From a virus: DNA of 20,683 bases. Under the pieces are notes generated by a model. It ran no database searches and was not told the origin of the DNA. It was given only the letters and a program-made list of their open reading frames with translations. The translations under genes were made by a program, and so were the position numbers. Positions 1,456 to 16,293 of the stretch are shown piece after piece; within the stretch, counting starts at the first letter, position 1; the number at the start of each line of letters is the position of its first letter. The stretch covers positions 1 to 20,683 of the IMG/VR virus record IMGVR_UViG_3300024262_000311; one strand, given 5' to 3'.

Positions 1456-1677
1456 GGTTTCAATCTTTGCTTCGAGTTCCTCTACTCTCCTCAGTAGATC
1501 GTTTAAGGTGGTGTTGTCTTCCGTCCCATACAAGTCTTGTAATAAATTCTTTCGCACGTCAAACCACCAACGTTGCAGCTCGGGTATTGGGACCTCTGGC
1601 AGATTATCGGGATTTGTAGCAGCAAGAGCCTCAGACGAGCTTCGGGTTACTTTAGGTGTTTTTCTAGATATAGGCAT
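1447..1677 (-). CDS. Small coiled-coil protein of unknown function
   Basis: 76 residues. The N-terminal half is Ser/Pro/Asn-rich and probably disordered. A WWFDVRKNLLQDLYG segment (about residues 37-51) is followed by a short Leu-heptad helix ending RRVEELEAKIETLG, a likely coiled coil. Its ATG overlaps the stop of the large nozzle-like gene (TAATG), so it is probably translated by re-initiation and made together with that protein. Not recognised as a known family; the context suggests a small tail or assembly accessory protein. It ends in TAG while most neighbours end in TAA. Confidence 0.7.
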   Translation of the reverse strand: MPISRKTPKVTRSSSEALAATNPDNLPEVPIPELQRWWFDVRKNLLQDLYGTEDNTTLNDLLRRVEELEAKIETLG

Positions 1678-4523
1678 TAAGCGTCTGTATCTCTAGGGGC
1701 TGACTCAGAATCTACAATATCAACATCGTAAATACGGGTGGCAATCCCAGCGTTTCGGAAATCATTTTCTATAAGGATCTCATCCCTGTAGTAGTTTTCC
1801 TTGAAATAAGTTTCGATAGAATTCTCAGTGTCTGGTTCTGGGAGTTGGACGTCCGCAAGAAGCTTTTGAGTTTTGGAAGGGTTCAAAGTTCCATATAACT
1901 TGATACGTACCTCTGGGTTGTCCGACTGAGAAGACAAAATAAGAACATATCTCTTGAGTATTTTCTCGTTAAACTCATCGTTAACAATACCCCAACCTGA
2001 TAATAGAACCGGAGTATACGCAACTCGATCAATCCAGTTCGCAGGGATGATATCGTAATAACCTTCTCGACTATACATGGAAGTCTCTCCAGCAAATTGA
2101 TCTCTTTTGAGGTTTGCTCTGCCGTAGGTATACATCGTTACGTCGGGCCCTCCCATTACGAACAAATGCTCCGAAGGACCTGAGAACTGACCTTCTGTAG
2201 GGGATTCAATAGACTCGGAAGCTGAGTAGTACTTGTCAACTGTACTACAAGTATTAAATTTGTAATCCCAACACAAAGCTTTGTCAGTAACCCCGTTAGG
2301 GAAGTTCCACCAGATCTCAGAGGTTATCGTGTTGACTGAACCATAGACTCGTTCCATGTCGGCACGCTCAACATTGCTGTAGAAGATGTCGTCACATAGG
2401 GAGAGTTTCTCCATAGGGACTGGGTTTGCAGTGATTACATCAAACCTAAAGAACTTGTTACGTCCGGGATAAACAAGGTAGTCCCCGTTGACTCTCACAA
2501 GCCCCCATCTCCAAAAGATTGTATCCTCACCTCGGTAAACAATACGGAAGGTGAAAGGATCGTCGACATCTCCTGTGTACCTTCCTAGGAAGATCGTAGT
2601 GTCTTTGAAAACAACTAGAGTCCCTTGGACATCTTCCATACGGAGTATGCCACTACTATCATCATCGAGATCATAGGAAAACGGTTGGGGTCCCAGTTCC
2701 AATATATCGTTTCTTTGAACAATCTCATCAGTAATTGTGGCTCCTGCATTGTCTACTACTCCATATTCTACGTGGCGGACAATCTCCGCACCAGATAACA
2801 CATTAACATCGATGCCGTAAACTCCGGGGGACTTCCCACTACTTGCGGGAGTTATAACTATCTCATCTGTGCTCCTGCCAGCAAAGCTATAAGCGGCTTG
2901 TAGCTCAACAAAATCAGGCGAGGGGTCAGTAGAAAGTTTGGTGACTATGGCATCCCTTAGTTGGGTTGTTGTTGTTGCCCCTGTGAAGCCTACCCCTTCT
3001 GTTAACGTAACCTCTACGCCTGCTAAGAAAAAAGTGAAATGAGAACCGGGAACTCCTGAAGGAGCGGTTCCAATATCTACAGTTAAAACAGTTTTTGGAC
3101 CAGAAGTCAAGGTCGTAATCAGATCTTGATTATAATCAGTGCCTTGTGAAATCCAGTTAATTGTTGTTTCCGCTTCTGGGGTTGCAGCAAGTCCACTCCC
3201 AGTCCCGGCATTGTCGGATTTATAAAGAGTGCCTCCGTAAGAAACTGTAACTCCCGCCCCCCAAATAGAGGTGTCGTTAGGAGCCCAAGGAGCATAAGTC
3301 AAAGAAGCTCCAGCTCTAGGAATCAATAACTCGTCCCCCGAGGTCCAAGAGAACATTGGGAACTTTGTCCGTAACACGTTTGTACCGACATCCATAGAAC
3401 CCTCAACAATAGAACCCCAACGTTTAGGGTTTGCTACAGGAGAGCCTATCATTCGGTATTGTGTCCGAGTAGATTTTGTTATGTCAAGAAAAGGTTGGAT
3501 TGCAGCGTTTTGTCCATTAATACCAGTGATGTCACTCGTATTCATTATTTCTTCAAGGTCATTGGTACTAATCTCAGACACATCCGCTGCAATCAAAAGA
3601 CCGTTGGTCTCGTCGATATTATCAACAAACCCATACCCGTTTTCTCGCAGCTCAAAAAGAAACTCTACGGAGAGGTCGTCGATATTGTAAGCAATAGGTA
3701 AATCATACCCATTGTTAAAAACTAAAGTCCCACTAATGTTCTCAACTTCCCAGCGGTGGCCGAGTTTGGAAAACTTGTATTTAGAGGATTGAGAATCTGT
3801 AGGGTCGTGAGGCGGGTTAATCTCTAACCACTGGTCACTTGCGTCGGTAGAATACACGGGGTAGATCGTATCCGGGCCAATCAAAGTATCTCCGGGAAGT
3901 ATGCCTAGGCCTGTTATATTTTCTGCTACCGTAAAAGTTGTTTCTCGGTCTTGGGGAAGTACTGCGTTGTTGTAAGAAATCCCAACAACCGTAAGAGTGT
4001 GGGTCGTCACAGTGCCGTCTAGGATATCAATAGTTTGTCCCAAAGACATCCCGTTCGGGTTTGTCGGACTATATTCTGTCCACTTACCTTTGATTGTAAT
4101 CTGTTGGTGCGTGGTTTGGACGGCCGAAACCTCAGCTCCAAAAACAGGGTAGTTCCCTACAACTGCGTCAGGCCCTGTAGCTCCGAGAAAGGGTTCTTCA
4201 AAATAAGTTGCTACGTCGTCAATTCCCAGATACCTGAAAATTGTAGTAGGCGTCGCAATGACAAGAGCGAGAGTCCCTCTAGGAGACCTCCCAGAGTAAA
4301 TCAAATTAATCTCTTCGTCTGAGGGTAAAGGAGGATACGCTTGTATATCAAGAGGTAAGTCTTTATTAGGCCGAAACAAAACATCACCCTCTCGTCTAAC
4401 TTCCTGATCGTATTCCCTACGGAAATTACGTTTCGTGGTGTAGTTAGCAAGACCTATTGTAGCAGCAGAGGACTTAGTGACTAAGTCCCCGCCTTTGGTG
4501 GGTTTGAATTGTATCGCTGGCAT
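1677..4523 (-). CDS. Large tail nozzle / tail-tubular-B-like virion protein with inserted modules
   Basis: 948 residues. The N-terminus (FKPTKGGDLVTKSS...NYTTKRNFRR) resembles the start of short-tail nozzle or tail-stabilisation proteins, which begin with a GG..N segment packing on the connector. Residues about 615-800 look like a beta-propeller-style core, with VVFKDTTIFLGRY, GDYLVYPGRNKFFRFD and the pattern SEIWWNFPNG...DKALCWDY, where strands carry WW/FP and W-D-Y motifs. Between these lie apparent insertions. Residues about 412-461 (VSYGGTLYKSDNAG...INWISQG) resemble a CBM5/12-like chitin/cellulose-binding motif, and residues about 130-245 and 470-585 are beta-rich and of unknown type. 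Its position after connector and fibre genes and its size support a distal tail tube or nozzle role; this is inference. The ATG overlaps the collar gene's stop (TAATG). An alternative is a large tail-fibre-anchoring protein. Confidence 0.55.
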   Translation of the reverse strand: MPAIQFKPTKGGDLVTKSSAATIGLANYTTKRNFRREYDQEVRREGDVLFRPNKDLPLDIQAYPPLPSDEEINLIYSGRSPRGTLALVIATPTTIFRYLGIDDVATYFEEPFLGATGPDAVVGNYPVFGAEVSAVQTTHQQITIKGKWTEYSPTNPNGMSLGQTIDILDGTVTTHTLTVVGISYNNAVLPQDRETTFTVAENITGLGILPGDTLIGPDTIYPVYSTDASDQWLEINPPHDPTDSQSSKYKFSKLGHRWEVENISGTLVFNNGYDLPIAYNIDDLSVEFLFELRENGYGFVDNIDETNGLLIAADVSEISTNDLEEIMNTSDITGINGQNAAIQPFLDITKSTRTQYRMIGSPVANPKRWGSIVEGSMDVGTNVLRTKFPMFSWTSGDELLIPRAGASLTYAPWAPNDTSIWGAGVTVSYGGTLYKSDNAGTGSGLAATPEAETTINWISQGTDYNQDLITTLTSGPKTVLTVDIGTAPSGVPGSHFTFFLAGVEVTLTEGVGFTGATTTTQLRDAIVTKLSTDPSPDFVELQAAYSFAGRSTDEIVITPASSGKSPGVYGIDVNVLSGAEIVRHVEYGVVDNAGATITDEIVQRNDILELGPQPFSYDLDDDSSGILRMEDVQGTLVVFKDTTIFLGRYTGDVDDPFTFRIVYRGEDTIFWRWGLVRVNGDYLVYPGRNKFFRFDVITANPVPMEKLSLCDDIFYSNVERADMERVYGSVNTITSEIWWNFPNGVTDKALCWDYKFNTCSTVDKYYSASESIESPTEGQFSGPSEHLFVMGGPDVTMYTYGRANLKRDQFAGETSMYSREGYYDIIPANWIDRVAYTPVLLSGWGIVNDEFNEKILKRYVLILSSQSDNPEVRIKLYGTLNPSKTQKLLADVQLPEPDTENSIETYFKENYYRDEILIENDFRNAGIATRIYDVDIVDSESAPRDTDA

Positions 4524-5146
4524 TATGCAGGTTGAGTAAAGTCTACGAACATGATATAAGCAAGAGCATAAAACTTAGGACGGTTGTCGTGAGCCCCAGC
4601 TCCTCCTGTGTTTCCTTGAGCGTGGACGTGTCCCTGTCCCGCTAACCCGCTAGAAGACCCATCGTCAGTAGTTGATGTTGTCAGAGCGAACCGCTCTGCA
4701 TTTGGGTTCTTGGATCCTATTTCGTTACCCCCGCTGGCAATGTTGCTGGCAAGCTGGTGCGTATGAGGAGGTATTTCAGATACAACAAGAGGGTGTGCGT
4801 TAGTATTCGGGTTCGTGTGGGCATGGTTCCCGATAGCGTCCGACCCTCCTGTCTGGCCATCCGTATACCCAGAACCGGAACCTGCACCAACAACAAACCT
4901 TGCCCGCAGGTCTGGAGTCTGTTGTCCGTTGTAAGTTCCCCCATTGCAAAGAGCCCAACCTGTCGGAATCGCAGCACTTGAGCCACTCCACAAGTTTATA
5001 ACCCCTACTGGAGTACGTAAATCAAACTCAGCTTGGATACGAGTGTTGGTCGTGTCGATAGCTTCGAGATTCTCGTCATGCTCTTTAGGAGTTAGAGGTC
5101 TCCCAGTTGGGATCCTCTTTATAGTAGTTGCTTGTGTGTAACTCAT
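4523..5146 (-). CDS. Tail-collar-domain fibre/tip protein
   Basis: 207 residues. The N-terminal 45 residues are helical (RPLTPKEHDENLEAID) and likely form an attachment or trimerisation segment. Residues about 46-105 match the phage tail-collar domain: PVGVINLWSGSSAAIPTGWA, LCNGG, then TPDLRARFVVGAG. The C-terminus ends NRPKFYALAYIMFV, a signature of collar-domain proteins (T4 gp12-like short fibres and bacterial microcystin-dependent-type proteins). Several HxH motifs lie between, HAH, HTH and HVH. In T4 gp12 such histidines bind metal along the trimer axis, and the same is inferred here. Likely role: receptor-contacting tip or short fibre. ATG overlaps the stop of the Ig-chain gene and its own stop overlaps the next start (both TAATG), so the three genes are translationally coupled. 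Confidence 0.85.
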   Translation of the reverse strand: MSYTQATTIKRIPTGRPLTPKEHDENLEAIDTTNTRIQAEFDLRTPVGVINLWSGSSAAIPTGWALCNGGTYNGQQTPDLRARFVVGAGSGSGYTDGQTGGSDAIGNHAHTNPNTNAHPLVVSEIPPHTHQLASNIASGGNEIGSKNPNAERFALTTSTTDDGSSSGLAGQGHVHAQGNTGGAGAHDNRPKFYALAYIMFVDFTQPA

Positions 5147-7785
5147 TATGCGGTGAGGGTTGCAGAAGTTGTATTAACAGAACCAAACTCGTTCGAGATT
5201 ACGCATCTGTATAGGTAGCCTATTTTTGGTCCTGTGTTCGTGACGGTCAGAGTCATAGAGTCTTCCCCGGAGTAATCTACTCCCGAAGGGATTGCTACGA
5301 AACCAGCTCCGGTATTCTCTTCCCAAGTATAGTCAAGAGTTTCTCCTTCAGTGGCCGTTCCCGTGCAAGAGAAGATCACAGGAGGGGAGGCGTCAGACTG
5401 GTTAGTTGGATTTGCTGAAACTGACGGAGCTGCCGTAAGGACAGTTAACGCAAAGGTATCACTGTCAGAACCTCCGGTATTCGTAACTGTTATACGGTAT
5501 TCGAACTCGTCTCCGTTTTGAAGGTTGCTTATTTGCAGTCGAGAAGATCCCGCCGCATCCGTGATAGTGACGGTTCCAGAAGCGGAAGGACTTGGGTCAG
5601 CGTCATTTAGAGTAACCCAAACACCTCCGCCAGTAGAGTCGTATTCCCACACAACACTAGGCGCAGGAGCCCCTGTAAAGAAGTAGCTAACATCGAGTCC
5701 GTCCGTCTGTGCTAGAAACTGAGCACTATTTGAAGTGGTTAGGGCCGCTGCGGATTCATTAACTGTAACTTGGGCACTAGATGAGATAACAGAACCAGCC
5801 CCATTACTGACCGTGCAACGGTAGTATTGTTGGTGGTCAGCTTGCGTGATCGCAGTGAAAGACAAATTAGCTGTCCCTTGTCCAGAGTCTCCGGGGAGGG
5901 CTGTTACGTCTGCCCAACCTGTAGCTCCGTCAGCGGAGTATTCCCACAAGTAAGTCAGTGGAGAAGACCCAGTCACTGCCACGGAAAGGTTAAGGGTTAA
6001 CCCTGCGTCTAGGGTTTGGGTCAAGGGATCCGAGGTTATGTATGGAGCTGATAACACGTCAAGAGTTACAACATCTGACTGAACTTCCCCAGCAGCATTG
6101 ATTACTTGACAGAAGTAGTCAGAACCATCTATCGCAGGATCCGCTCCTGTAATGGTGTAGGTATTCAAAGTTTCTCCACCGATCAAAGAACTCAAGGCCG
6201 AAGCAACTCCAGTCGGAGAGGTTGTAAAGTCAACAGCACTACCCCCTCGAGAGGTACTCAGTTGGAAGGTATTTGTCCCACCGCCATAAGAGTTGTTTAT
6301 GACAAAGTATTGAGTTGCAGCACTAAACTCTCCGGGCTGTCCCGCAGTGAAAACAAAAATGTCTCCGTCGGTAAGCTGGTCTCCCGTTAGAGTTACCTCA
6401 TCTGTAGGACTACTAAAATCAAGATTTACGCTGCCCGCTTCTACATACCATTGATATGTCGGTAAAGGAGAGCCTGTCGCATTGATTAAGAACGTTACAT
6501 CATCGTAAGCGTCAATAGACTCGTTGATAGGCTGTAACGTGATAACGGGTAAGCTATCTACAAAAAGAGGAACTGTCGTAGAATCGACTGACCCTGCTGC
6601 GTTCGCTACGGTGCATAAGTAATCGTCAACGTCTGAGACGTCTATGTTACTTATAGTAAGAGTAGATCTTTGATGTCCAGAGACGGTGTCGTCTACAATA
6701 CCAATATCTCCTCCTGCGGATAGAGGAGTTCCTCCTTTTTTCCAAGTGAAAGTCACGTCCGGTTCTCCAGCGGCTTCAATAACAAATATTGCAGTGCCTC
6801 CAGTAGTTGCTGATTGTAAAACAGGTTGCACGAGTATTGAAGGCGCTTGAGTTCCAATAGACAACACGGCCACGGCACTCTCTGTAGTAGCTACTGCGTT
6901 AGTAACTTTACAAGTATAAGCTCCTTGGTCAGCGACTTGAACATTTGTCAAACTCAAAGATATCGTAGCTCCTGAAGTTGTCGAACCGGATTCTCCTCCA
7001 ATAGCCACAGCTGTTTTATACCATTGGTAAGTCATAGGTTCAGCTCCAGCTGCAACACACTCAAAGAGAACATTATCTCCGACAGAGGCAACATCCGTAT
7101 CGGGTTGATCGGTAAAGAAAGGAGCGTCTGCAATGATTGCAAGGGTCGCTGCGTTTGATTCTGTGGAGCCTTTAGTGTTGGTAGCTACGCAAGTATAAGC
7201 TCCTCCGTCGGCTATTTGTACATTTGACAAAGTCAAAGTAGAAGCTGTTTCACCCCCTATAGGAGTTCCGTCAAGTTCCCATTGGTAAGTAGCGGCAGGG
7301 ATTGCGTCCACAGTAACGAAGTAAGAGAGTCCTCCTCCTACGTTTGCAGCTTGTGAAGTCGGAAGTGGATGGGCTGTAAATTCTGGTGCATACTCAATAG
7401 TTGCGGAAACAGTATCACTTGTAACGCTCCCAGCAATATTAGAAACTATACATTTGTAATCAGCAGCATCGGTCTTTACGCTCGCAGCGATAGTTAGGGT
7501 AGAAGAAGTCTCCCCCGCAATATCTACGCCATCTTTTTGCCACTGGTACGAAGGGTCTGGTAGTCCAGTCGCCGTAACCGAGAAAGTTAAAACAGCTCCA
7601 AGGTCGACAGTTTGTGCAATGGGTTGTACAGAAATTACAGGGATTGTAGCCAGCTGAACTGTCACATGAGTAGTCTCTACCGAGCCCTCGTCGTTAGTAA
7701 TTACGCAGTAATAGTCTCCCGCATCCGCAGCTTGAAAGTTTTCTATAACAAGTTCGCTGTTAGTCTCGTCTGTAATCTCTGCCAT
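5146..7785 (-). CDS. Chain of Ig-like (I-set type) domains, virion decoration or adhesion protein
   Basis: 879 residues that are almost entirely Ig-like domains. Residues 1-48 are only the second half of a domain (SELVIENFQAADAGDYYCVI); the first half is at the end of the upstream gene. Complete domains lie at about 49-133, 134-221, 222-314, 315-412, 413-580, 581-678, 679-785 and 786-879. The repeated signature is QP..Q.....G, then YQW.KDG..I.GETSS-LTI..V..AD.G.Y.C...N..GS. Only the domains at 222 and 786 have both canonical cysteines; most others keep one. The domain at 413 carries an insert of about 65 residues. Phage Ig-like domains are known on capsid and tail surfaces, where they bind host glycans or mucus weakly, and several are attached by frameshifting. 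ATG lies one base after the upstream TAA, with AAGG six bases before it. It may be made alone by re-initiation, as a fusion, or both. Confidence 0.85.
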   Translation of the reverse strand: MAEITDETNSELVIENFQAADAGDYYCVITNDEGSVETTHVTVQLATIPVISVQPIAQTVDLGAVLTFSVTATGLPDPSYQWQKDGVDIAGETSSTLTIAASVKTDAADYKCIVSNIAGSVTSDTVSATIEYAPEFTAHPLPTSQAANVGGGLSYFVTVDAIPAATYQWELDGTPIGGETASTLTLSNVQIADGGAYTCVATNTKGSTESNAATLAIIADAPFFTDQPDTDVASVGDNVLFECVAAGAEPMTYQWYKTAVAIGGESGSTTSGATISLSLTNVQVADQGAYTCKVTNAVATTESAVAVLSIGTQAPSILVQPVLQSATTGGTAIFVIEAAGEPDVTFTWKKGGTPLSAGGDIGIVDDTVSGHQRSTLTISNIDVSDVDDYLCTVANAAGSVDSTTVPLFVDSLPVITLQPINESIDAYDDVTFLINATGSPLPTYQWYVEAGSVNLDFSSPTDEVTLTGDQLTDGDIFVFTAGQPGEFSAATQYFVINNSYGGGTNTFQLSTSRGGSAVDFTTSPTGVASALSSLIGGETLNTYTITGADPAIDGSDYFCQVINAAGEVQSDVVTLDVLSAPYITSDPLTQTLDAGLTLNLSVAVTGSSPLTYLWEYSADGATGWADVTALPGDSGQGTANLSFTAITQADHQQYYRCTVSNGAGSVISSSAQVTVNESAAALTTSNSAQFLAQTDGLDVSYFFTGAPAPSVVWEYDSTGGGVWVTLNDADPSPSASGTVTITDAAGSSRLQISNLQNGDEFEYRITVTNTGGSDSDTFALTVLTAAPSVSANPTNQSDASPPVIFSCTGTATEGETLDYTWEENTGAGFVAIPSGVDYSGEDSMTLTVTNTGPKIGYLYRCVISNEFGSVNTTSATLTA

Positions 7786-7786
7786 A

Positions 7787-7800
7787 TTAAACCTTAAACC
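7787..7800 (-). repeat. 7-bp tandem repeat (GGTTTAA)x2 at the split Ig domain; candidate recoding or slippage site
   Basis: The minus strand reads TGG TTT AAG GTT TAA T ATG across the junction of the connector-like gene and the Ig-chain gene. The 14 bases 7800-7787 are two perfect copies of GGTTTAA, the second containing the TAA stop. The downstream gene is in the +1 frame, open back past this point for nine codons (a TAA in that frame lies eleven codons before the first GCA of the Ig gene). A +1 shift at GTT TAA T would give YQWFKV-NMAEI; deletion of one 7-base unit, or a hop from UUU to UUU, would give YQWF-NMAEI. Both complete the Ig domain with near-normal length. AAGG also stands six bases before the ATG and could serve re-initiation instead. 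Confidence 0.6.
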
Positions 7801-9079
7801 ATTGGTAAGTTATTCCGGGATTGCCTATAGCTCCCACGCCTAAAGTGAGTGTTCCGCCTTGAGCGATTACTTGACCTTGTGGTTGTGTCAAAATAATAGG
7901 GCTAAAAGGTTCCGCTCCCCTACAAGTAGCGGGGCCTCTATCGACATTGAGTCTGCGTTCTCTCTTCTTAGCTGAGGCAAGCCTGCGTCGATATTCTTTG
8001 AAAGCTGCTGAAGCGGGTTGCGCTTTTGTCCCTGCTTCCTCTACATACCCGTAAATCTGAACTAGGACAAAGTAGGAAATAGCTTTAGCGGCTGTTTCAT
8101 TGAAAACTACTGTATCCCCGTCTGAGTAATCTAGTTTAGTACCTTCCCAAGTGATCTCTAATTCTACCACATCCCCAAGTAATTGAGGATATACTAGGAA
8201 CTTAGAACCTCTCGGGTCAAAGGTTATAACAGGTTCACAGTTACAGGAATTACAGATAACTTGATCTTTTAAGTTCCAAGGGACGAACCGTACTTGGCAA
8301 CCACAAATATCCTCAAGTCCGGGATATCTTAAAGTAGCCGTGAGGGGTACCGCTCCTTCTGGTAAAGTTCCCTCAGAGGCGTTCCCTACAGGGAACATGT
8401 CAGAAGCGACGTATAGATTAGAATTTTCTAATCGGTATTCGGGTATAAAGTGTTGCAGGTCAAGGAGTCCTTGTCGGATCTGTTGGTCGATAAATACATC
8501 AAAACCTTCAATATCAAGTAGGGATTTTTCAATCTGTTCATCCATCCACTCGCCGAGGGCTTTAATATCCTGCTTCCCTTCTTCGATCATAGCATCGACG
8601 TAATCGATCGTATTCTGACGGTCTTTATCGACTGGGAGGTAAACTCTTACCTTGTTACGTAAGTCAATATCCGAAAGGGCTGTTTCATACCCAACAAGGC
8701 GAAAACGATCTTTTTCATAAGAAGACCGTACAACCATTGCAAGTTCTTGATTCTGCTCTATTTCTGAAAGAATATTAGACTTAACAAATTTAGAGATTGT
8801 GGAAATAAACAAGGACTCTGAGTGGGCGTCAGATAGAAAATCCTTTACTTGGGTTTGTACGTCAGAAAGACTCAATGAAGTTTTATACCCCACCAAGTCG
8901 TTTCTCGCACTGTCGTAACTCCCTTTGTGGGAGCCATAGGAAGTAAGATCTCTTAGGAATTCTCGGGAATAGTTAGCTCGTACAAAGGTGGCTACGGTGC
9001 GGATCAACTGATCGTCGGTCCGGTCTTTGCCTCCTGTTGCGTTGTCTTTTACTAATTCCTTGAACTCCAAATAGGTCAT
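7787..9079 (-). CDS. Connector/adaptor-like virion protein ending in half an Ig domain
   Basis: 430 residues. Residues about 27-82 and 92-148 look like an internal duplication: both have T...FV(R/K)(A/S)N early and LVGY(K/E)T(A/S)LS near the end. Residues about 155-215 are helical. Residues 250-295 contain a cysteine cluster, C259-x-C261 ... C276-x2-C279-x-C281, a possible metal site. Residues 300-380 (DTVVFNETAAKAISYFVLVQ...YRRRLASAKKRERR) resemble the helical tail of head-tail connector or adaptor proteins. From residue 393 (SPIILTQPQGQVIAQGG...ITYQWFKV) the protein is the first half of an Ig domain (strands A to C), cut by TAA; the rest is in the next gene. AAAGGA five bases before the ATG is a fair Shine-Dalgarno. 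The head-tail adaptor role is inferred from position and fold style; no family is recognised with certainty. Confidence 0.7.
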   Translation of the reverse strand: MTYLEFKELVKDNATGGKDRTDDQLIRTVATFVRANYSREFLRDLTSYGSHKGSYDSARNDLVGYKTSLSLSDVQTQVKDFLSDAHSESLFISTISKFVKSNILSEIEQNQELAMVVRSSYEKDRFRLVGYETALSDIDLRNKVRVYLPVDKDRQNTIDYVDAMIEEGKQDIKALGEWMDEQIEKSLLDIEGFDVFIDQQIRQGLLDLQHFIPEYRLENSNLYVASDMFPVGNASEGTLPEGAVPLTATLRYPGLEDICGCQVRFVPWNLKDQVICNSCNCEPVITFDPRGSKFLVYPQLLGDVVELEITWEGTKLDYSDGDTVVFNETAAKAISYFVLVQIYGYVEEAGTKAQPASAAFKEYRRRLASAKKRERRLNVDRGPATCRGAEPFSPIILTQPQGQVIAQGGTLTLGVGAIGNPGITYQWFKV

Positions 9080-9080
9080 T

Positions 9081-9668
9081 TTAATCCTTTAAGTATGCGA
9101 CCCAAGCGTCGACGTTGTGTCCTTTTTTAGGGTCTCTCTTAGGAGCTCCCTCCTCTTTTGCAAGGTCTTTAAGCTTGTCCTCCGATTCTCCTGTGAACTC
9201 TGCGAGTTGTCGGTAAGATGTAGCAAATTCTGAAACAGCTTCTGAAGCTTCTTCTCCGATATCCTCCGAAAGAGCTGATACCTCGCTAAGTTCTTCCTTC
9301 GTGAAAAGACTTTCTTTTTCTTCACCATCTTCCTGTCCCACATGTTCTACAACCGGAGCCTCTTGAGGAGGACCCGCTAGAATAACTTGTTGGAGATTTG
9401 TTGGCTGCTCCAAGGTTGTTAGAGAGGAGTGTAAGGGCTTTTTTTTTCCGACCATCTGATTGTATTCGGCTTTATCAATTTCCGTAATTCCAGATTTAGG
9501 ATTAGAGATAATAGGTTTCAAAGCCTCTATAATCTCTGCATCGTCAGTTGAAAATACTCCTAGATACATCCCAGCGGATACGGAGCAAAGTTCAAAGTTA
9601 ATAGTAGTCCCTTGGGAGAGATTTACAGGGTGTTTAGCCCTCTCAGTCAAATAGTATTTAGTTATCAT
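9081..9668 (-). CDS. Unrecognised acidic protein downstream of the decoration gene
   Basis: 195 residues from ATG at 9668; a TTG directly before it also keeps the frame but is a poorer start. Residues 1-75 look like a compact domain (YYLTERAKHPVNLSQG, SVSAGMYLGVFSTDDAEI, KSGITEIDKAEY). Residues 75-165 are acidic, Glu/Ser-rich and helical, probably flexible. The end (KRDPKKGHNVDAWVAYLKD) is basic then amphipathic. No family recognised. Its place between a capsid-decoration-like gene and a connector-like gene, and its size, fit a head-completion or minor head protein, but that is only contextual. It starts just after a terminator-like hairpin, with an A/T-rich leader and no Shine-Dalgarno. Its stop is one base before the next ATG (TAAAATG), so it is coupled to the connector gene. 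Confidence 0.7.
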   Translation of the reverse strand: MITKYYLTERAKHPVNLSQGTTINFELCSVSAGMYLGVFSTDDAEIIEALKPIISNPKSGITEIDKAEYNQMVGKKKPLHSSLTTLEQPTNLQQVILAGPPQEAPVVEHVGQEDGEEKESLFTKEELSEVSALSEDIGEEASEAVSEFATSYRQLAEFTGESEDKLKDLAKEEGAPKRDPKKGHNVDAWVAYLKD

Positions 9669-10406: not shown

Positions 10407-12098
10407 TTAAGAAGTTGCAGCGCAATCCTCGTAAGTATACACTGGGCACTCGTCTGAGAAATTCTCAAGAATGAAGTGACGTTTAGTGTCTCCGAGTATC
10501 GGAGTCATCTTAGTGGATTCCATCTCTGTGTGAGTGATGTTCGCTTCGATGATACATTTGAAGTCTGGATCAGACTCAATGTCAGGAGTGTGGCTCTTAC
10601 GGCTATTAACACCAGCTACACCCATAGACAAATCGCTCCAGTCAACGGCCACTAACATATTACCACGAGAAGCAAGGTTCCCTGTGAAATGTGATTTGTG
10701 ATCTGCGAAGAAAGGATCTACGATTACATTCAACATGATCTGTGCTTCATCCAACTCGTAAGAGTTAACATTCCACATAGTTTGTTGACCGAAGGTGATC
10801 TTCTGTCCAAGGTTAGCGTTACGAGTCAAGTCCATGCCGTAACGTTTCTTGTAGTAATCATTGAAGAGAGTCTTCAAACGATTAGCTGTAGACTTGTCAG
10901 TCATGATATCGATACTGTCTACGGAACCTCCATCAACTTCACGGTAACGCTTCAAGCTGTATAGTTGTTCTTCAAGATAGTTGATGTCAAGTTTTTGACC
11001 GAGGTTGTCAACAAGACGGTTACATCCACGTAACTGCTCACGTACACCGATTGCGTTTGACTTATATTCAATCAAACCGTTGTTCCCACGAGGGTCTCTT
11101 ACCTGAGGCAAGTTCTTGTAGTCTTCAACTGTTTGGTGTTCGTCAATCTGCTGACCGTACCAGAACGTGTTCATCATCTTACGCTGATACAAAGCATACA
11201 TACGCTTGTTCTGCTCAGACATTGGGAGTTCTTTGAAACGCTCAAGGTATGGATTTACTTGACCAGCGAAAATACGCTTCAAGAAATCTTCATACAAATC
11301 GTCGTAACAACGAGTGTAACGCATTGTCTGAGGCCAGAAAGCAATAAGACGCTTGCTGAGATCAGAAGGCTGATTGTAGCACCAAGACTCATAGTCTGAT
11401 ACTGAGTTAGCTCCCATTTGAACAACCCCAGCTTGTGCTTGGTAAGGAAGTCTTTCAGCAGCTGTCATACTAGCCCACTTAGCGTCAGTAACGTTAGGAG
11501 CAAGGATAATGTCTGCCTTTTCAATACCACCAGCGTTCGCATTAACGGAAGTAATTACCTTGTAATAAGGTTCTGTTACAGTTCCAGAAGCTGAGAGATT
11601 AAGAACAACAACGTACTCACCCGGAAGAGCATAACGCTCGAGGTTTGAAATCGTAGAAGTCCAAGGAGAAGCAGAAGCTTTAATGGTAATTTTCCAAGCA
11701 CCGATTGGGTGGTAAACTCCATTAACAGTAGTTCCTGCGTCTGGGTCAACGACACCAGCTTCGATCTGAAAAGCATTTGCATTAACAAGATCCTCTTGCT
11801 CTCTCAAGATATAAGGGAGGAAAAATGATTTGTTAGGACCGAGGTTCTGCTTGCTGATCTCGCCCTTAACGTTGGAGATACGTGACATCATAAGATCCCA
11901 CATAGAATTCTCACGAACACCACTCATACGAGCCATGGTTGTTTGACGGTACAAGAAGAATTCCATGAAAGCTGTATCTTTCAATTCCTCCATCTTGGCG
12001 GGGGTTAACCCTGTAATGTCCGCTTTCGTAAGAGATCCGTCACAAGAGTTTGAGACGTCTATGATACGGGGACCGCATTGACTGAATATATCTGACAT
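10407..12098 (-). CDS. Major capsid protein (HK97-fold type, inferred)
   Basis: 563 residues. It is identified by position (directly after an acidic scaffold and large portal gene), size, an intergenic leader of its own and a strong terminator behind it. The N-terminal 80 residues are helical (KMEELKDTAFMEFFLYRQTT), resembling an N-arm. Residues about 100-250 are beta-rich with ITIKAS, EYVVVLNL and YYKVITSV strands. Residues 260-400 are strongly helical and charged (spine-helix-like). The C-terminal part has alternating strands such as GKLA-type loops and ILGDTKRHFILENFS. No single diagnostic motif exists for this fold at sequence level, so the assignment rests on context. The protein starts MSDIF, the same five residues as the ejection-type protein. 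There is no Shine-Dalgarno before the ATG; the leader is A-rich (AACACTAAAATT). Confidence 0.75.
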   Translation of the reverse strand: MSDIFSQCGPRIIDVSNSCDGSLTKADITGLTPAKMEELKDTAFMEFFLYRQTTMARMSGVRENSMWDLMMSRISNVKGEISKQNLGPNKSFFLPYILREQEDLVNANAFQIEAGVVDPDAGTTVNGVYHPIGAWKITIKASASPWTSTISNLERYALPGEYVVVLNLSASGTVTEPYYKVITSVNANAGGIEKADIILAPNVTDAKWASMTAAERLPYQAQAGVVQMGANSVSDYESWCYNQPSDLSKRLIAFWPQTMRYTRCYDDLYEDFLKRIFAGQVNPYLERFKELPMSEQNKRMYALYQRKMMNTFWYGQQIDEHQTVEDYKNLPQVRDPRGNNGLIEYKSNAIGVREQLRGCNRLVDNLGQKLDINYLEEQLYSLKRYREVDGGSVDSIDIMTDKSTANRLKTLFNDYYKKRYGMDLTRNANLGQKITFGQQTMWNVNSYELDEAQIMLNVIVDPFFADHKSHFTGNLASRGNMLVAVDWSDLSMGVAGVNSRKSHTPDIESDPDFKCIIEANITHTEMESTKMTPILGDTKRHFILENFSDECPVYTYEDCAATS

Positions 12099-12223: not shown

Positions 12224-13783
12224 TTAAACGTCGTCGGGAAACTCTGGATCCAACATAGCGTCATACAAAGAGTTACCTGTCGGTTTATTCTTAGACACTT
12301 GGTTCCCGGGCTCTCTAGAAGGACGTTTAGACTTAGGCTTTATGTCCTCATCAGATTCTTTAGTTTTTGGTTTTTCCTTAGCATTTGCCCCTCTAAGTAT
12401 CCTATCAATCTCTGCATCTGATAAACCTCGGGACTTTAAAGAGCGAGTAAGCATAGTTTCTTGTGAAGAAACCTCGTCTTTAATCCCGTTTTCAATACGT
12501 ATTTTCATGTCAACCGCAAGGAGTTCTAACAGGTCTTGATCTGAGAAAGTCCAGTGTTTCGCTTGCTCTTCTCTGGATAGAGAAAAGAACTTCTCTCTAG
12601 GCATAAAGAACTTGTCACCCTGCTTCAAAACCTTCTCTCCTTCGGGGTGTGCTACCATGTCTTTCCCGAACTGAATAATCTTGTTACTGAGTTCTGCTTG
12701 AACTGGATTGTCCTTATCATACTCAGCAAGACCTAGACGCAACTCCATAAGAGACTTGCCCATTTCTTGAGTTTTCTGAAATTCTCTTCCTGCCACAGCG
12801 GTTTCTATAGGTAGTGATTCTGCTACTTTTTTAACACCCTCGTCGTCAAACCCGTTCTCTTGGTAAGCCTTTTTCAAACTGTCCGGTAGATAGTCCACTA
12901 AGTTGCTAACGTATTTTTGAACGGTTTTTTCCAACTTAGGTTTGTTCTCAGAATCCCGGATCTTGTCCTTGAGGGGTTTATACTTTTCCTCGATGTTTTT
13001 CTCAGCTCTTTTGGTAGCCTGATCGATCAAGTAATCCTGACCCAGCATCTGGAATTCTTCGGGATCTACTTTGGGTTTATGCTGGGATACCCAATCTTCA
13101 AAGTCTGGGTTATCAGAAAGAGGGGTATCTGGATCCTCGGCTAATAATTCTTTGGCCTTAGCCTTCAACCCCTTCAGATATTCAAGATGTTTTGCGGCTC
13201 TACCTTTGTAGGCTGGATCTTTAGACTCTGCGTGTTTCCAGACGTCGAGAGATTGTTTTTCGGAAAGTGTCAACGTAGATATAAACTCGGCATCCTCTTT
13301 TGAAACTTCCTCCTCGGCTTGGGTTTTCTCTTTAGAATCAAAACCCTCGAAGTCGGGTTTAAAATCATCGTCGGTAAAAGCTTCTTTAATGGAAGGTTTT
13401 CTATCAACGACTTCCTCGTCAGCCTCATCAGACTCATCGTCAGAGACCTTGGTGGAATTATCCTCCTTGTTCTTTTTATCCTTCTTTTCCTTAGAAGTTT
13501 TGTCTTTCGGAGTGTCGGCTTCCTCATCAACCTCTTCGGGAGGATTAGAGTCTAGATTCTTATTGCCCTCAATACGACGTAGGGTTTCAGCAACACTCCG
13601 CCCTTTGTGGCTAAATACAGAAAGTTCCTCTTCTTCTTGGTCAATACCTAAAAGTCTAGCCTCTTCAGGGCTGTACCTTTTCGTAGGTGGTTCTGGAGTG
13701 TCTAACATAAAAGACATATCAACCGGGTTGATATATTCTTCGTTCTCTACCTCTTCGTTTTCAGTCTCTTGGGTTTTGCTCAT
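12224..13783 (-). CDS. Capsid scaffold protein (inferred)
   Basis: 519 residues, very rich in Glu, Asp, Lys and Ser with almost no aromatic core in the first 170 residues. These carry low-complexity acidic stretches (KDKTSKEKKDKKNKEDNS, VSDDESDEADEEVVD). Residues about 180-400 are predicted largely helical (LEYLKGLKAKAKELLAED, DQATKRAEKNIEEKYK). The C-terminus is basic then acidic (KPKSKRPSREPGN ... MLDPEFPDDV), the usual site for coat-protein binding in scaffolds. Position between portal and major capsid, length and charge are those of a phage scaffold that guides procapsid assembly and is later removed. No protease motif (Ser-His-Asp set) was noticed. Starts 11 bases after the portal stop with no clear Shine-Dalgarno. 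Confidence 0.7.
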   Translation of the reverse strand: MSKTQETENEEVENEEYINPVDMSFMLDTPEPPTKRYSPEEARLLGIDQEEEELSVFSHKGRSVAETLRRIEGNKNLDSNPPEEVDEEADTPKDKTSKEKKDKKNKEDNSTKVSDDESDEADEEVVDRKPSIKEAFTDDDFKPDFEGFDSKEKTQAEEEVSKEDAEFISTLTLSEKQSLDVWKHAESKDPAYKGRAAKHLEYLKGLKAKAKELLAEDPDTPLSDNPDFEDWVSQHKPKVDPEEFQMLGQDYLIDQATKRAEKNIEEKYKPLKDKIRDSENKPKLEKTVQKYVSNLVDYLPDSLKKAYQENGFDDEGVKKVAESLPIETAVAGREFQKTQEMGKSLMELRLGLAEYDKDNPVQAELSNKIIQFGKDMVAHPEGEKVLKQGDKFFMPREKFFSLSREEQAKHWTFSDQDLLELLAVDMKIRIENGIKDEVSSQETMLTRSLKSRGLSDAEIDRILRGANAKEKPKTKESDEDIKPKSKRPSREPGNQVSKNKPTGNSLYDAMLDPEFPDDV

Positions 13784-13794
13784 AATGTATGTTG

Positions 13795-16293
13795 TTATAT
13801 GTTAGGAGGGCCTATGGCCGATTGCGGAGTAGGACTTTGGTCCTGTATCGCTTGTTGTTGTGCAAGTTCTTGTTGTTGTGCTGCGTCTACTGGGTTCTGA
13901 GGAGCTGGTGGTTGAGTCCCTAGTTGTAGTTGCAGCTGTTGGGCTATCTGAGTAACTGCTCCATCGAGTTCTTGGACTCCTTGTGCATTCTGCTGGATAA
14001 CTTGTAAAATCTCTTCCATAGAAGGAGCTCCCTCAGGAGTTTGTTGGTCTCCTTCACTCTCAGGATTTAGTTTAAGAGTTATGGTAGTTCCAGAAAGCCT
14101 AAAGGCCTCGGTTATCATCTCGAACAGTTGTTTTTGACCAACAGCTTTAACCATAGCCTCATTGCCTGTTATTGTTCCTAGGAACTGGAATATAGCTTGA
14201 GCCGCCTCTACAGACTGCGTACGTACCGCACCATCCCTAGAGTTGAAGATGTAGTCGTGAACAAGAGAGTTCTTTGAACCCGTAATGGTCTGTTGTACCT
14301 CAAGGAGGTTAGATTGAACGTCATAGTTTTCGATCTCCTCGGGGTTTGTAACTTTAAAACCAGCAGCTCGGATAACGTCGTCTGGGTAGGTATCTACAAT
14401 AGGGACGTAAACTTCGTTCTTCCCAGAAGCCATCAAGGATTCGTACAGGATACGTTTCATAGCGGCTCTGAACTCATCGGGGCCTTGAGACGTAAAGTTG
14501 AAAAGAGCCGTTGTAGTGTTGGCTACTTCTACAACCTCTGAAGCGGATACCTCCCGCTCAACAAACTGTCCAAGTTCCTGAGGGCTAAACATCTGAGTCT
14601 TCTCAAGAAGGCCGATAATGTTAGTGATACCTCTGAAAGTCTCTGCTATTTGAGCATGTAGGTCTGACGTCTGGAACTTAAAAGGAGAATCCCTCACTGG
14701 GTTTTTACCTCGTAGCTCTTCCTCATCCCCAGAACTATATTCAGCAATAAGGGCCTCGGAATGGAAACGTCCAGTCTTAACAAACTTTTTGATGTACTCT
14801 CGGGCATCATCTTCTAAACTGTCTACGTCAATGGCAAGAATCATGAAAGACTCTAAACGCATTAAGTAGACAAGCTGACTCATAAGGTTGTCCGCCTGAT
14901 CCTGATATGGTAGGATCTCATGAGCCATTCCCGCATTGAGAAGTCTGCCATCATCTTCATTGTAGCCCATATAAGCTGCCGGAGTAGACGGAAGAATTTC
15001 TGCATGGACCACTGTATCGTCATTAGCAATAACGAGCTTAACCCAAACAGGGTGCGGGTAGTCCCCAAACCCTTTATCTTTAGGAATAACCTTTTCATAG
15101 TAAGTAGCTAGGAAAACCGCTTGGTCGTCCTCAGCGTCAGTAAGTAATCCGGTATTAGTCTTGCGCTCGTTCTTAAGAGCTATTTGAGTAGCAGACTCTG
15201 TAGGTGCTGGAAACTTGATTACTGTATCTGGGTAGTACGCATCAAAGAAAGATTGATAGGATGTGTAAAGATCGTCAAGGGCGCTGGCTGTTTTTATCTC
15301 GTTACGATTAAAATACCCAGAATCTCTCTGGATATCCTTAGCTTGAACCACATCCCAAAAACCTAGGTATTCAACCCCGTTGTCGTAATTGACAGAGGAT
15401 AGAGGGGATGCCATATCATAGAAAACTCTAGACGGGTGAGGTGTAACGAACTTAACCCCCTCTTTTGTAATGACTTCCTCAAGTTCCCAAGCATCTGAAG
15501 TGCTTTCTAAAAAATTCTTTCGGTATTGTTTTTCTCGATCCCAAGCAGATTCAACAAAAGCTACCGTGTGCCCGTGAAGGAAACATTTCCTAAGCCACTG
15601 AGTAAATTCTGGACGGTATCCGTATTGGTCAGTTATAACCTCTACTCGCTGAGAAACAGCATCTGACCGTAAATTACCAACGTGGGTTTTGGCTCTCGGT
15701 TCGTATTTGAAAAAAGGATAGAGGTTGGCAAATCGGTTAGTTTGAGCCGCTACTCTGCGAGTTACGAAGGGGCGTATCAAGTTAAGAGCTGACTCAGAAA
15801 AACGACCTAAATCAATAGAAGTTTTTCCTCCAGATTCCTTTATGATGTACTCTTTCGCTTCGTCCTCTCCTAAAACTTCCTCTAGTTGTTTGGCACACTC
15901 TTGGACGTTTAACTTGTTCTGAGCGTACAAAGTAAGGGGGATTGTCTCGTTCACTACAGGACGTCCATCAAAAGCTAAGTCGGCAGCGAAGTAAAACCGA
16001 TAGTTGTTAAGGTTCCATAGACGGCCCTCATCTAAACGATCGTGTATGTTTTGGATCCACTTGTCTTTTTTTGCAACAAGTTTACGGAGGTACTCTTTAC
16101 GGACCTGTTTTTCAGCTTTCTCGCTGAGGGGTTCATCCTCGCCTTCATCCTCTCGTAAGGATTCTAGACGGGCAATCTCCCGTTCAACCAAACTTTCGGC
16201 CTCAGGAGGGTTGTCCTTTTCTCTAGCTAGAAAAAAGGCTTTTAAAGACTTATTGGTCGTCTTAAACTTCTTGAGAACTTCGTAATCTATCAT
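13795..16293 (-). CDS. Portal protein (inferred)
   Basis: 832 residues, in the size range of large podovirus portals. Residues 1-85 are a charged helical N-terminal extension (EREIARLESLREDEGEDE). Residues about 85-600 contain the likely wing, stem and clip regions, with RPFVTRRVAAQTNRFANLYP, a stretch of Tyr/Trp-rich strands, and helices such as DQADNLMSQLVYLMRLESFM. Residues about 725-832 are Gln/Ala/Pro-rich with an amphipathic helix (AQGVQELDGAVTQIAQQLQL), like the C-terminal barrel of P22-type portals. The protein would form the dodecameric ring at the DNA-entry vertex, bind terminase, and carry the tail. The assignment is from size, architecture and place before scaffold and capsid; no terminase gene is in the window. 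The ATG lies inside the end of the upstream small gene (32-base overlap). Confidence 0.7.
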   Translation of the reverse strand: MIDYEVLKKFKTTNKSLKAFFLAREKDNPPEAESLVEREIARLESLREDEGEDEPLSEKAEKQVRKEYLRKLVAKKDKWIQNIHDRLDEGRLWNLNNYRFYFAADLAFDGRPVVNETIPLTLYAQNKLNVQECAKQLEEVLGEDEAKEYIIKESGGKTSIDLGRFSESALNLIRPFVTRRVAAQTNRFANLYPFFKYEPRAKTHVGNLRSDAVSQRVEVITDQYGYRPEFTQWLRKCFLHGHTVAFVESAWDREKQYRKNFLESTSDAWELEEVITKEGVKFVTPHPSRVFYDMASPLSSVNYDNGVEYLGFWDVVQAKDIQRDSGYFNRNEIKTASALDDLYTSYQSFFDAYYPDTVIKFPAPTESATQIALKNERKTNTGLLTDAEDDQAVFLATYYEKVIPKDKGFGDYPHPVWVKLVIANDDTVVHAEILPSTPAAYMGYNEDDGRLLNAGMAHEILPYQDQADNLMSQLVYLMRLESFMILAIDVDSLEDDAREYIKKFVKTGRFHSEALIAEYSSGDEEELRGKNPVRDSPFKFQTSDLHAQIAETFRGITNIIGLLEKTQMFSPQELGQFVEREVSASEVVEVANTTTALFNFTSQGPDEFRAAMKRILYESLMASGKNEVYVPIVDTYPDDVIRAAGFKVTNPEEIENYDVQSNLLEVQQTITGSKNSLVHDYIFNSRDGAVRTQSVEAAQAIFQFLGTITGNEAMVKAVGQKQLFEMITEAFRLSGTTITLKLNPESEGDQQTPEGAPSMEEILQVIQQNAQGVQELDGAVTQIAQQLQLQLGTQPPAPQNPVDAAQQQELAQQQAIQDQSPTPQSAIGPPNI

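Follow-up and report, generated by a model that had tools for sequence, protein, structure and literature searches.

A single immunoglobulin-like domain divided between a predicted head-tail adaptor gene and the gene that follows it in an uncultured short-tailed phage

The structural operon of an uncultured short-tailed phage lies on the minus strand of the IMG/VR record IMGVR_UViG_3300024262_000311, a virus record of 20,683 bases that is referred to here in its entirety as the window. Two adjacent genes of this operon, encoding 430 and 879 amino acids, meet in the middle of an immunoglobulin-like (Ig) domain, and the boundary between the two open reading frames (ORFs) falls on a perfect tandem repeat of seven bases. 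The features of this boundary are as follows.

7787-9079, minus strand: upstream gene, an ORF of 430 amino acids in which a predicted head-tail adaptor (residues ~1-380) is joined by a linker to the opening half of an Ig domain, and ending ...GITYQWFKV at a TAA stop (7787-7789)
5146-7785, minus strand: downstream gene, an ORF of 879 amino acids that begins MAEITDETNSELVIENFQAADAGDYYC and comprises the remainder of the split Ig domain, then eight further Ig domains
7790-7912, minus strand: strands A to C of the split Ig domain (its upstream half), covering positions 3-37 of 82 in the phage Ig profile and 2-37 of 78 in Ig_3
7651-7785, minus strand: last strands of the split Ig domain, with DAGDYYC (its downstream half), covering positions 41-79 of 82 in the phage Ig profile
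7787-7800, minus strand: perfect 7-bp tandem repeat GGTTTAA GGTTTAA, read from the sequence, at the break
7783-7789, minus strand: coupled stop and start, TAA-T-ATG (TAA at 7789-7787, a single base at 7786, ATG at 7785-7783)
7792-7795, minus strand: Shine-Dalgarno-like AAGG, read from the sequence, 6 nucleotides 5' of the ATG

The phage Ig profile was built from 18 phage Ig domains and has 82 positions; Pfam Ig_3 was used with its curated cut-off of 30 bits. With the phage profile, the upstream half scores 32.7 bits and the downstream half 39.0 bits when the two are scored apart. With Ig_3, the upstream half (15.9 bits, E 0.018) and the downstream half (22 bits) are both under the cut-off and the joined segment is over it, at 48.2 bits. 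The two ORFs hold complementary halves of one Ig domain. A model of the 88 joined residues, made with AlphaFold2 from an alignment of the window's own Ig repeats, has a complete Ig fold with a mean predicted local distance difference test (pLDDT) score of 94.8, the junction loop (residues 41-50) being the least confident part at 81, and the matches of this model in the PDB are Ig domains. In the model of the 430-residue protein the half-Ig (381-430) has no structure, with a pLDDT of 37-42 that is partly due to an alignment without Ig rows. The sixth Ig domain of the 879-residue protein has an insertion of ~80 residues (at ~residues 440-535, after YQWY and before IGGET), which sits in the loop equivalent to the split in the first Ig domain and is possibly a nested domain, so disruption is tolerated at this place. 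Among the phage loci compared, only the window has an Ig domain whose complementary halves lie on either side of an ORF boundary: 13 other Ig-bearing phage loci keep each detected Ig domain in one ORF, and the seven other loci with viral-contig relatives of the Ig gene have all of their Ig domains intact within single ORFs. The closest public relatives of the split domain, with ~37-43% identity across the junction, are the Ig tail or decoration proteins of Felix O1-type phages (Ounavirinae), in which the Ig domains are likewise intact in single ORFs but are on a different carrier protein.

The reading strand at the boundary is TAC CAA TGG TTT AAG GTT TAA T ATG GCA GAG (TGG TTT AAG GTT TAA T ATG at 7800-7783), with the start in the +1 frame relative to the stop. 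The in-frame TAA arises from the second repeat copy and the AAGG arises at the boundary of the two copies, while deletion of one copy leaves an open in-frame fusion (..TGG TTT AAT ATG GCA..). Perfect tandem repeats of 7-mers number two in the window against 1.6 expected, so that (GGTTTAA)x2 by itself is unremarkable in 20 kb; such repeats occupy only ~0.06-0.14% of bases, however, and with coverage of ~0.1% the position of this one exactly at the Ig break is notable. The second such repeat, (AACTTTG)x2 at 9586-9599 in a gene for 196 amino acids, leaves the frame intact and looks like chance. A single insertion or deletion introduced during assembly or sequencing would account for the split. 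This explanation is highly improbable, since a separate assembly, IMGVR_UViG_3300009149_000228, has the same two repeat copies and the same junction, with the 14 bases of the repeat free of gaps. The two contigs are 99.96% identical over 13.5-14.5 kb, with no gaps and 6 mismatches, of which none is at the junction, two are synonymous changes in the adaptor gene and one is a synonymous change in the Ig gene. The initial annotation, in which one Ig domain was described as split over two genes at (GGTTTAA)x2 with TAA-T-ATG, is thus borne out by the sequence and by the profile halves, and its list of candidate mechanisms, re-initiation among them, holds up.

The upstream gene is predicted, from its modeled structure, to encode a podovirus-type head-tail adaptor (a connector of the gp8/TtpA type). 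Residues 1-380 have a predicted fold with pLDDT mostly above 85, and their best Foldseek matches are portal-tail adaptor or connector chains of GP4, SU10, phicrAss001, cyanophage A4, Pa223, and VP1, with a best E of 9.7e-5 and template modelling (TM) scores of up to 0.57 by target length. The position of the gene, after the portal and capsid genes, is conserved in relatives. Residues ~10-145 include an extra all-helical N-terminal region of more than 100 residues, and most relatives are without it (alignment gaps in L005 and L006).

Alignments of the capsid, portal, and tail proteins led to well over 100 related viral loci, none of which has an Ig domain on the adaptor; the count among distinct adaptor homologues is 0 of 51. 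The nearest capsid relative (L009) stops before its adaptor gene, and a scan of genome contigs with the portal yielded two remote loci. A contig whose title names an uncultured archaeon metagenome-assembled genome (L178, CALIKS010000067.1) carries a portal of the window phage's family and an adaptor homologue; it is probably a misbinned phage contig, or else a hint of an unexpected host. Other domains are found on adaptors. Six adaptor ORFs (L042, L047, L055, L057, L061, and L171) have a long in-frame C-terminal extension, which is a calcineurin-like phosphoesterase (PF00149) in all four that were scanned (L042, L055, L061, and L171). This is an unusual enzyme for attachment to a phage neck. 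Another adaptor homologue, L150:20273-22276, has a C-terminal extension (668 amino acids, cut by the locus end) with no Pfam match. In the VP2-like Vibrio podoviruses (Enhodamvirus; K292 and H2 SGB-2014), the protein called tail tubular protein has an N-terminal adaptor and, after it, a series of I-set/Ig_3 domains, as in the window, and its gene lies among head and tail genes; residues 1-180 of the K292 protein match the Carin 1 connector. The VP2-like gene is one unbroken ORF of 741-750 amino acids, in which 2-3 Ig domains can be detected and the tail is rich in Gly; the window has two ORFs and ~9 Ig domains, the first of which contains the break. Joining of domains to the adaptor by fusion is thus an established pattern, and given the phosphoesterase fusions and the VP2-like adaptor-Ig ORFs, the half-Ig on the window adaptor is best understood as what is left of such a fusion.

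As for how the junction is read, termination followed by re-initiation is, judging from the sequence, the most likely decoding. Short-distance termination-reinitiation has been shown by experiment in bacteria (PMC6728339, PMC10666635), and the coupled gene pairs of those studies, like the pair described here, have the stop and the start within one base; in the usual coupled pairs the products are two complete subunits, while here they share one small domain. The AAGG is at initiation spacing to the ATG in a window where few starts carry a Shine-Dalgarno sequence and most have nothing resembling one; the start of the adaptor gene itself has a comparable AAGGA at 5 nucleotides. The junction before the adaptor gene (9081/9079) is TAA-A-ATG with this AAGGA, thus the same spacing as TAA-T-ATG, and the two junctions after the 430/879 boundary are TAATG. 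In 49 relatives, the next start relative to the adaptor stop is at +1 in 11, at -4 in 10, and at -1 in 10 (31 of the 49 together), so +1, the TAA-N-ATG type, is the commonest junction after adaptor genes; an identical TAATATGGC junction occurs in three loci (L020, L021, and L024). As TAA-N-ATG is ordinary both in the operon and in relatives, re-initiation needs no special assumption.

A programmed +1 frameshift on GUU UAA U or immediately before it, which would give a minority adaptor-Ig fusion, was the preference of the initial annotation and is unlikely. The +1 frame is open over the junction, the Ig domain joined in this way scores 75.8 bits, and an adaptor would make sense as the anchor. 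Frameshifts of either sign are frequent in phage Ig extensions (PMC5009743), and SPP1 makes an Fn3 extension at CCC_UAA (PMC6316719). As in the frameshifted Ig or Fn3 extensions of the T3 capsid, Lactobacillus A2, and SPP1 gp17.1*, an Ig-type module lies out of frame directly downstream of a structural gene. Those cases add a whole domain and do not cut one, however, and the window has no recognizable slippery site or stimulator, a break within the domain, and, one base past the stop, an ATG with Shine-Dalgarno spacing that offers a simpler route. By codon-anticodon rules the valine tRNA cannot re-pair, since the move from GUU to UUU breaks the first-position pair, and the AAGG, although spaced for initiation, overlaps the P-site codon and does not lie 5' of it. 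Flanking RNA structure at the junction is not above that of shuffled sequences (z -0.3 to +1.5 by folding that left out pseudoknots). The stop is also a strong one, UAAU being a strong context, and TAA is usual in this operon, where it ends 9 of the 10 genes examined. At the RF2 site, CUU_UGA re-pairs in the +1 frame and a Shine-Dalgarno sequence lies upstream. Sites of +1 shifting with P-site re-pairing include CCC_UAA of SPP1 (PMC6316719) and CCC_UGA of Listeria (PMC5009743), and RF2 frameshifting has a weak stop context (PMC5009743).

The fit of the joined domain does not decide the matter. The phage profile gives 75.8 bits by the +1 shift and 72.2 bits by the one-copy join; as these differ by only ~4 bits, profile scores do not choose the mechanism. 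Retention of the W-x-K motif had been taken to favor frameshifting but is neutral, the distance from Trp to the next Ile or Leu being 7 residues in the +1 product, 5 in the one-copy product, and mostly 6 in the intact Ig repeats. A ribosomal hop of 7 nucleotides from one UUU codon to the other, which would be T4 gene 60 bypassing in a much shortened form, is the least probable of the explanations weighed here. The take-off and landing codons match and the landing frame is correct, and in gene 60, too, the skipped interval restores the frame between matched codons. The features of T4-type bypassing were looked for at the junction and none was found: the interval is 7 nucleotides against 50, the codon after the take-off UUU is not a stop but AAG, which is common (20 per 1000), the junction has no significant stem-loop at take-off, and the adaptor C-terminal sequence lacks the KKYK nascent-peptide element known from gene 60. 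Two other candidates were rejected: transcriptional slippage, as the longest homopolymer at the site is TTT, and readthrough of the TAA, as the frame beyond it has stops and is without an Ig domain.

As for how the split came about, the reading to which we give a little over an even chance, on the strength of the sequence comparisons, is that an ancestral adaptor-Ig fusion gene was split by the 7-bp duplication into a coupled pair that is read by termination-reinitiation. The ancestor would have been a head-tail adaptor with an in-frame C-terminal Ig chain, and the tandem duplication would have cut the loop between strands C and E of the first Ig domain. One slip may have supplied both the in-frame TAA and the Shine-Dalgarno-like AAGG 6 nucleotides before a Met codon that already existed, and the outcome would be a translationally coupled gene pair. 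Ribosomes would stop translation of the adaptor at the TAA and restart at the ATG one base on. The products would be two proteins with complementary half-Ig domains, the downstream one with the N-terminus (M)AEITDETNSELVIENF. In the virion, the halves may associate and so hold the Ig chain on the adaptor ring; alternatively, the upstream half may be a leftover that does no harm.

Several points weigh against this account. The one-copy loop is one residue shorter than that of most intact repeats, and the one-copy, fused form was absent from a scan of IMG/VR with a pattern whose flanks could lie 0-9 bases apart, in which only the known two-copy contig matched; for lack of a one-copy relative, we infer the direction of change, from fused to split. 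Half an Ig domain at the C-terminus of a structural protein is also normally a folding liability.

The same features have been weighed for a recent mutation without compensating function, that is, a broken (frameshifted) accessory gene in one lineage, which we consider improbable. Ig extensions are commonly dispensable. The arrangement is present in one lineage only, represented by the two near-identical contigs, and the repeat copies are perfect, as in a young duplication; by a published classification (PMC3711429), lone frame breaks are mostly indel mutations or errors. Against decay, both halves still match the Ig profile well, the downstream ORF runs uninterrupted for 879 codons from an ATG at Shine-Dalgarno-like spacing, and two separate assemblies both have the two-copy form as their majority allele. 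Phase variation, in which the Ig chain would be switched by slippage from two repeat copies (the split form) to one (the fused form) and back, is very unlikely. Loss of one copy does reopen the fused gene, and such switches are usually marked by a tandem repeat where the gene of a surface protein is broken (criteria in PMC3711429). Contingency loci, however, typically have far more than two 7-bp copies, the two-copy form is present in each contig, and the pattern scan turned up no one-copy variant.

A further proposal concerns the fate of the two halves once the coupled pair has been translated. The half-Ig domains of the two structural proteins (strands A-C and the later strands) might fold together non-covalently and so decorate the adaptor ring with Ig chains, with the 7-bp repeat as a switch between covalent fusion and two-part docking; this is rather unlikely. 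Docking of the halves in the virion, taken alone, is speculation that fits the anatomy, and is doubtful.

The remaining genes of the operon, again all on the minus strand, are listed below; the names of the first three rest on position and size.

13795-16293, minus strand: portal-like gene
12224-13783, minus strand: scaffold-like gene
10407-12098, minus strand: capsid-like gene
Between the capsid-like gene and the 430-amino-acid gene, minus strand: two small genes
4523-5146, minus strand: tail collar-domain gene
1677-4523, minus strand: tail gene of 948 amino acids

The gene order of this operon is the same in relatives. Between the relatives' structural genes there are ORFs that by eye resemble HNH endonucleases (L005 9217-9843 and 17205-18071; L007 11860-12831). 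Searches of public phage records by tblastn with the adaptor, capsid, portal, and 948-residue tail proteins gave no match, and the phage is distant from named phages.

The locus presents a phage accessory-domain gene caught at the boundary between fusion and fission. One short tandem duplication can supply a stop, a ribosome-binding site, and the spacing of a start together, and so make two coupled genes out of a single structural one. If the halves do not pair, the locus is a caution that an out-of-frame Ig domain after a structural gene need not mean programmed frameshifting. If they do pair in the virion, this would be a natural case of Ig-fragment complementation used as an assembly device, and possibly a split tag.

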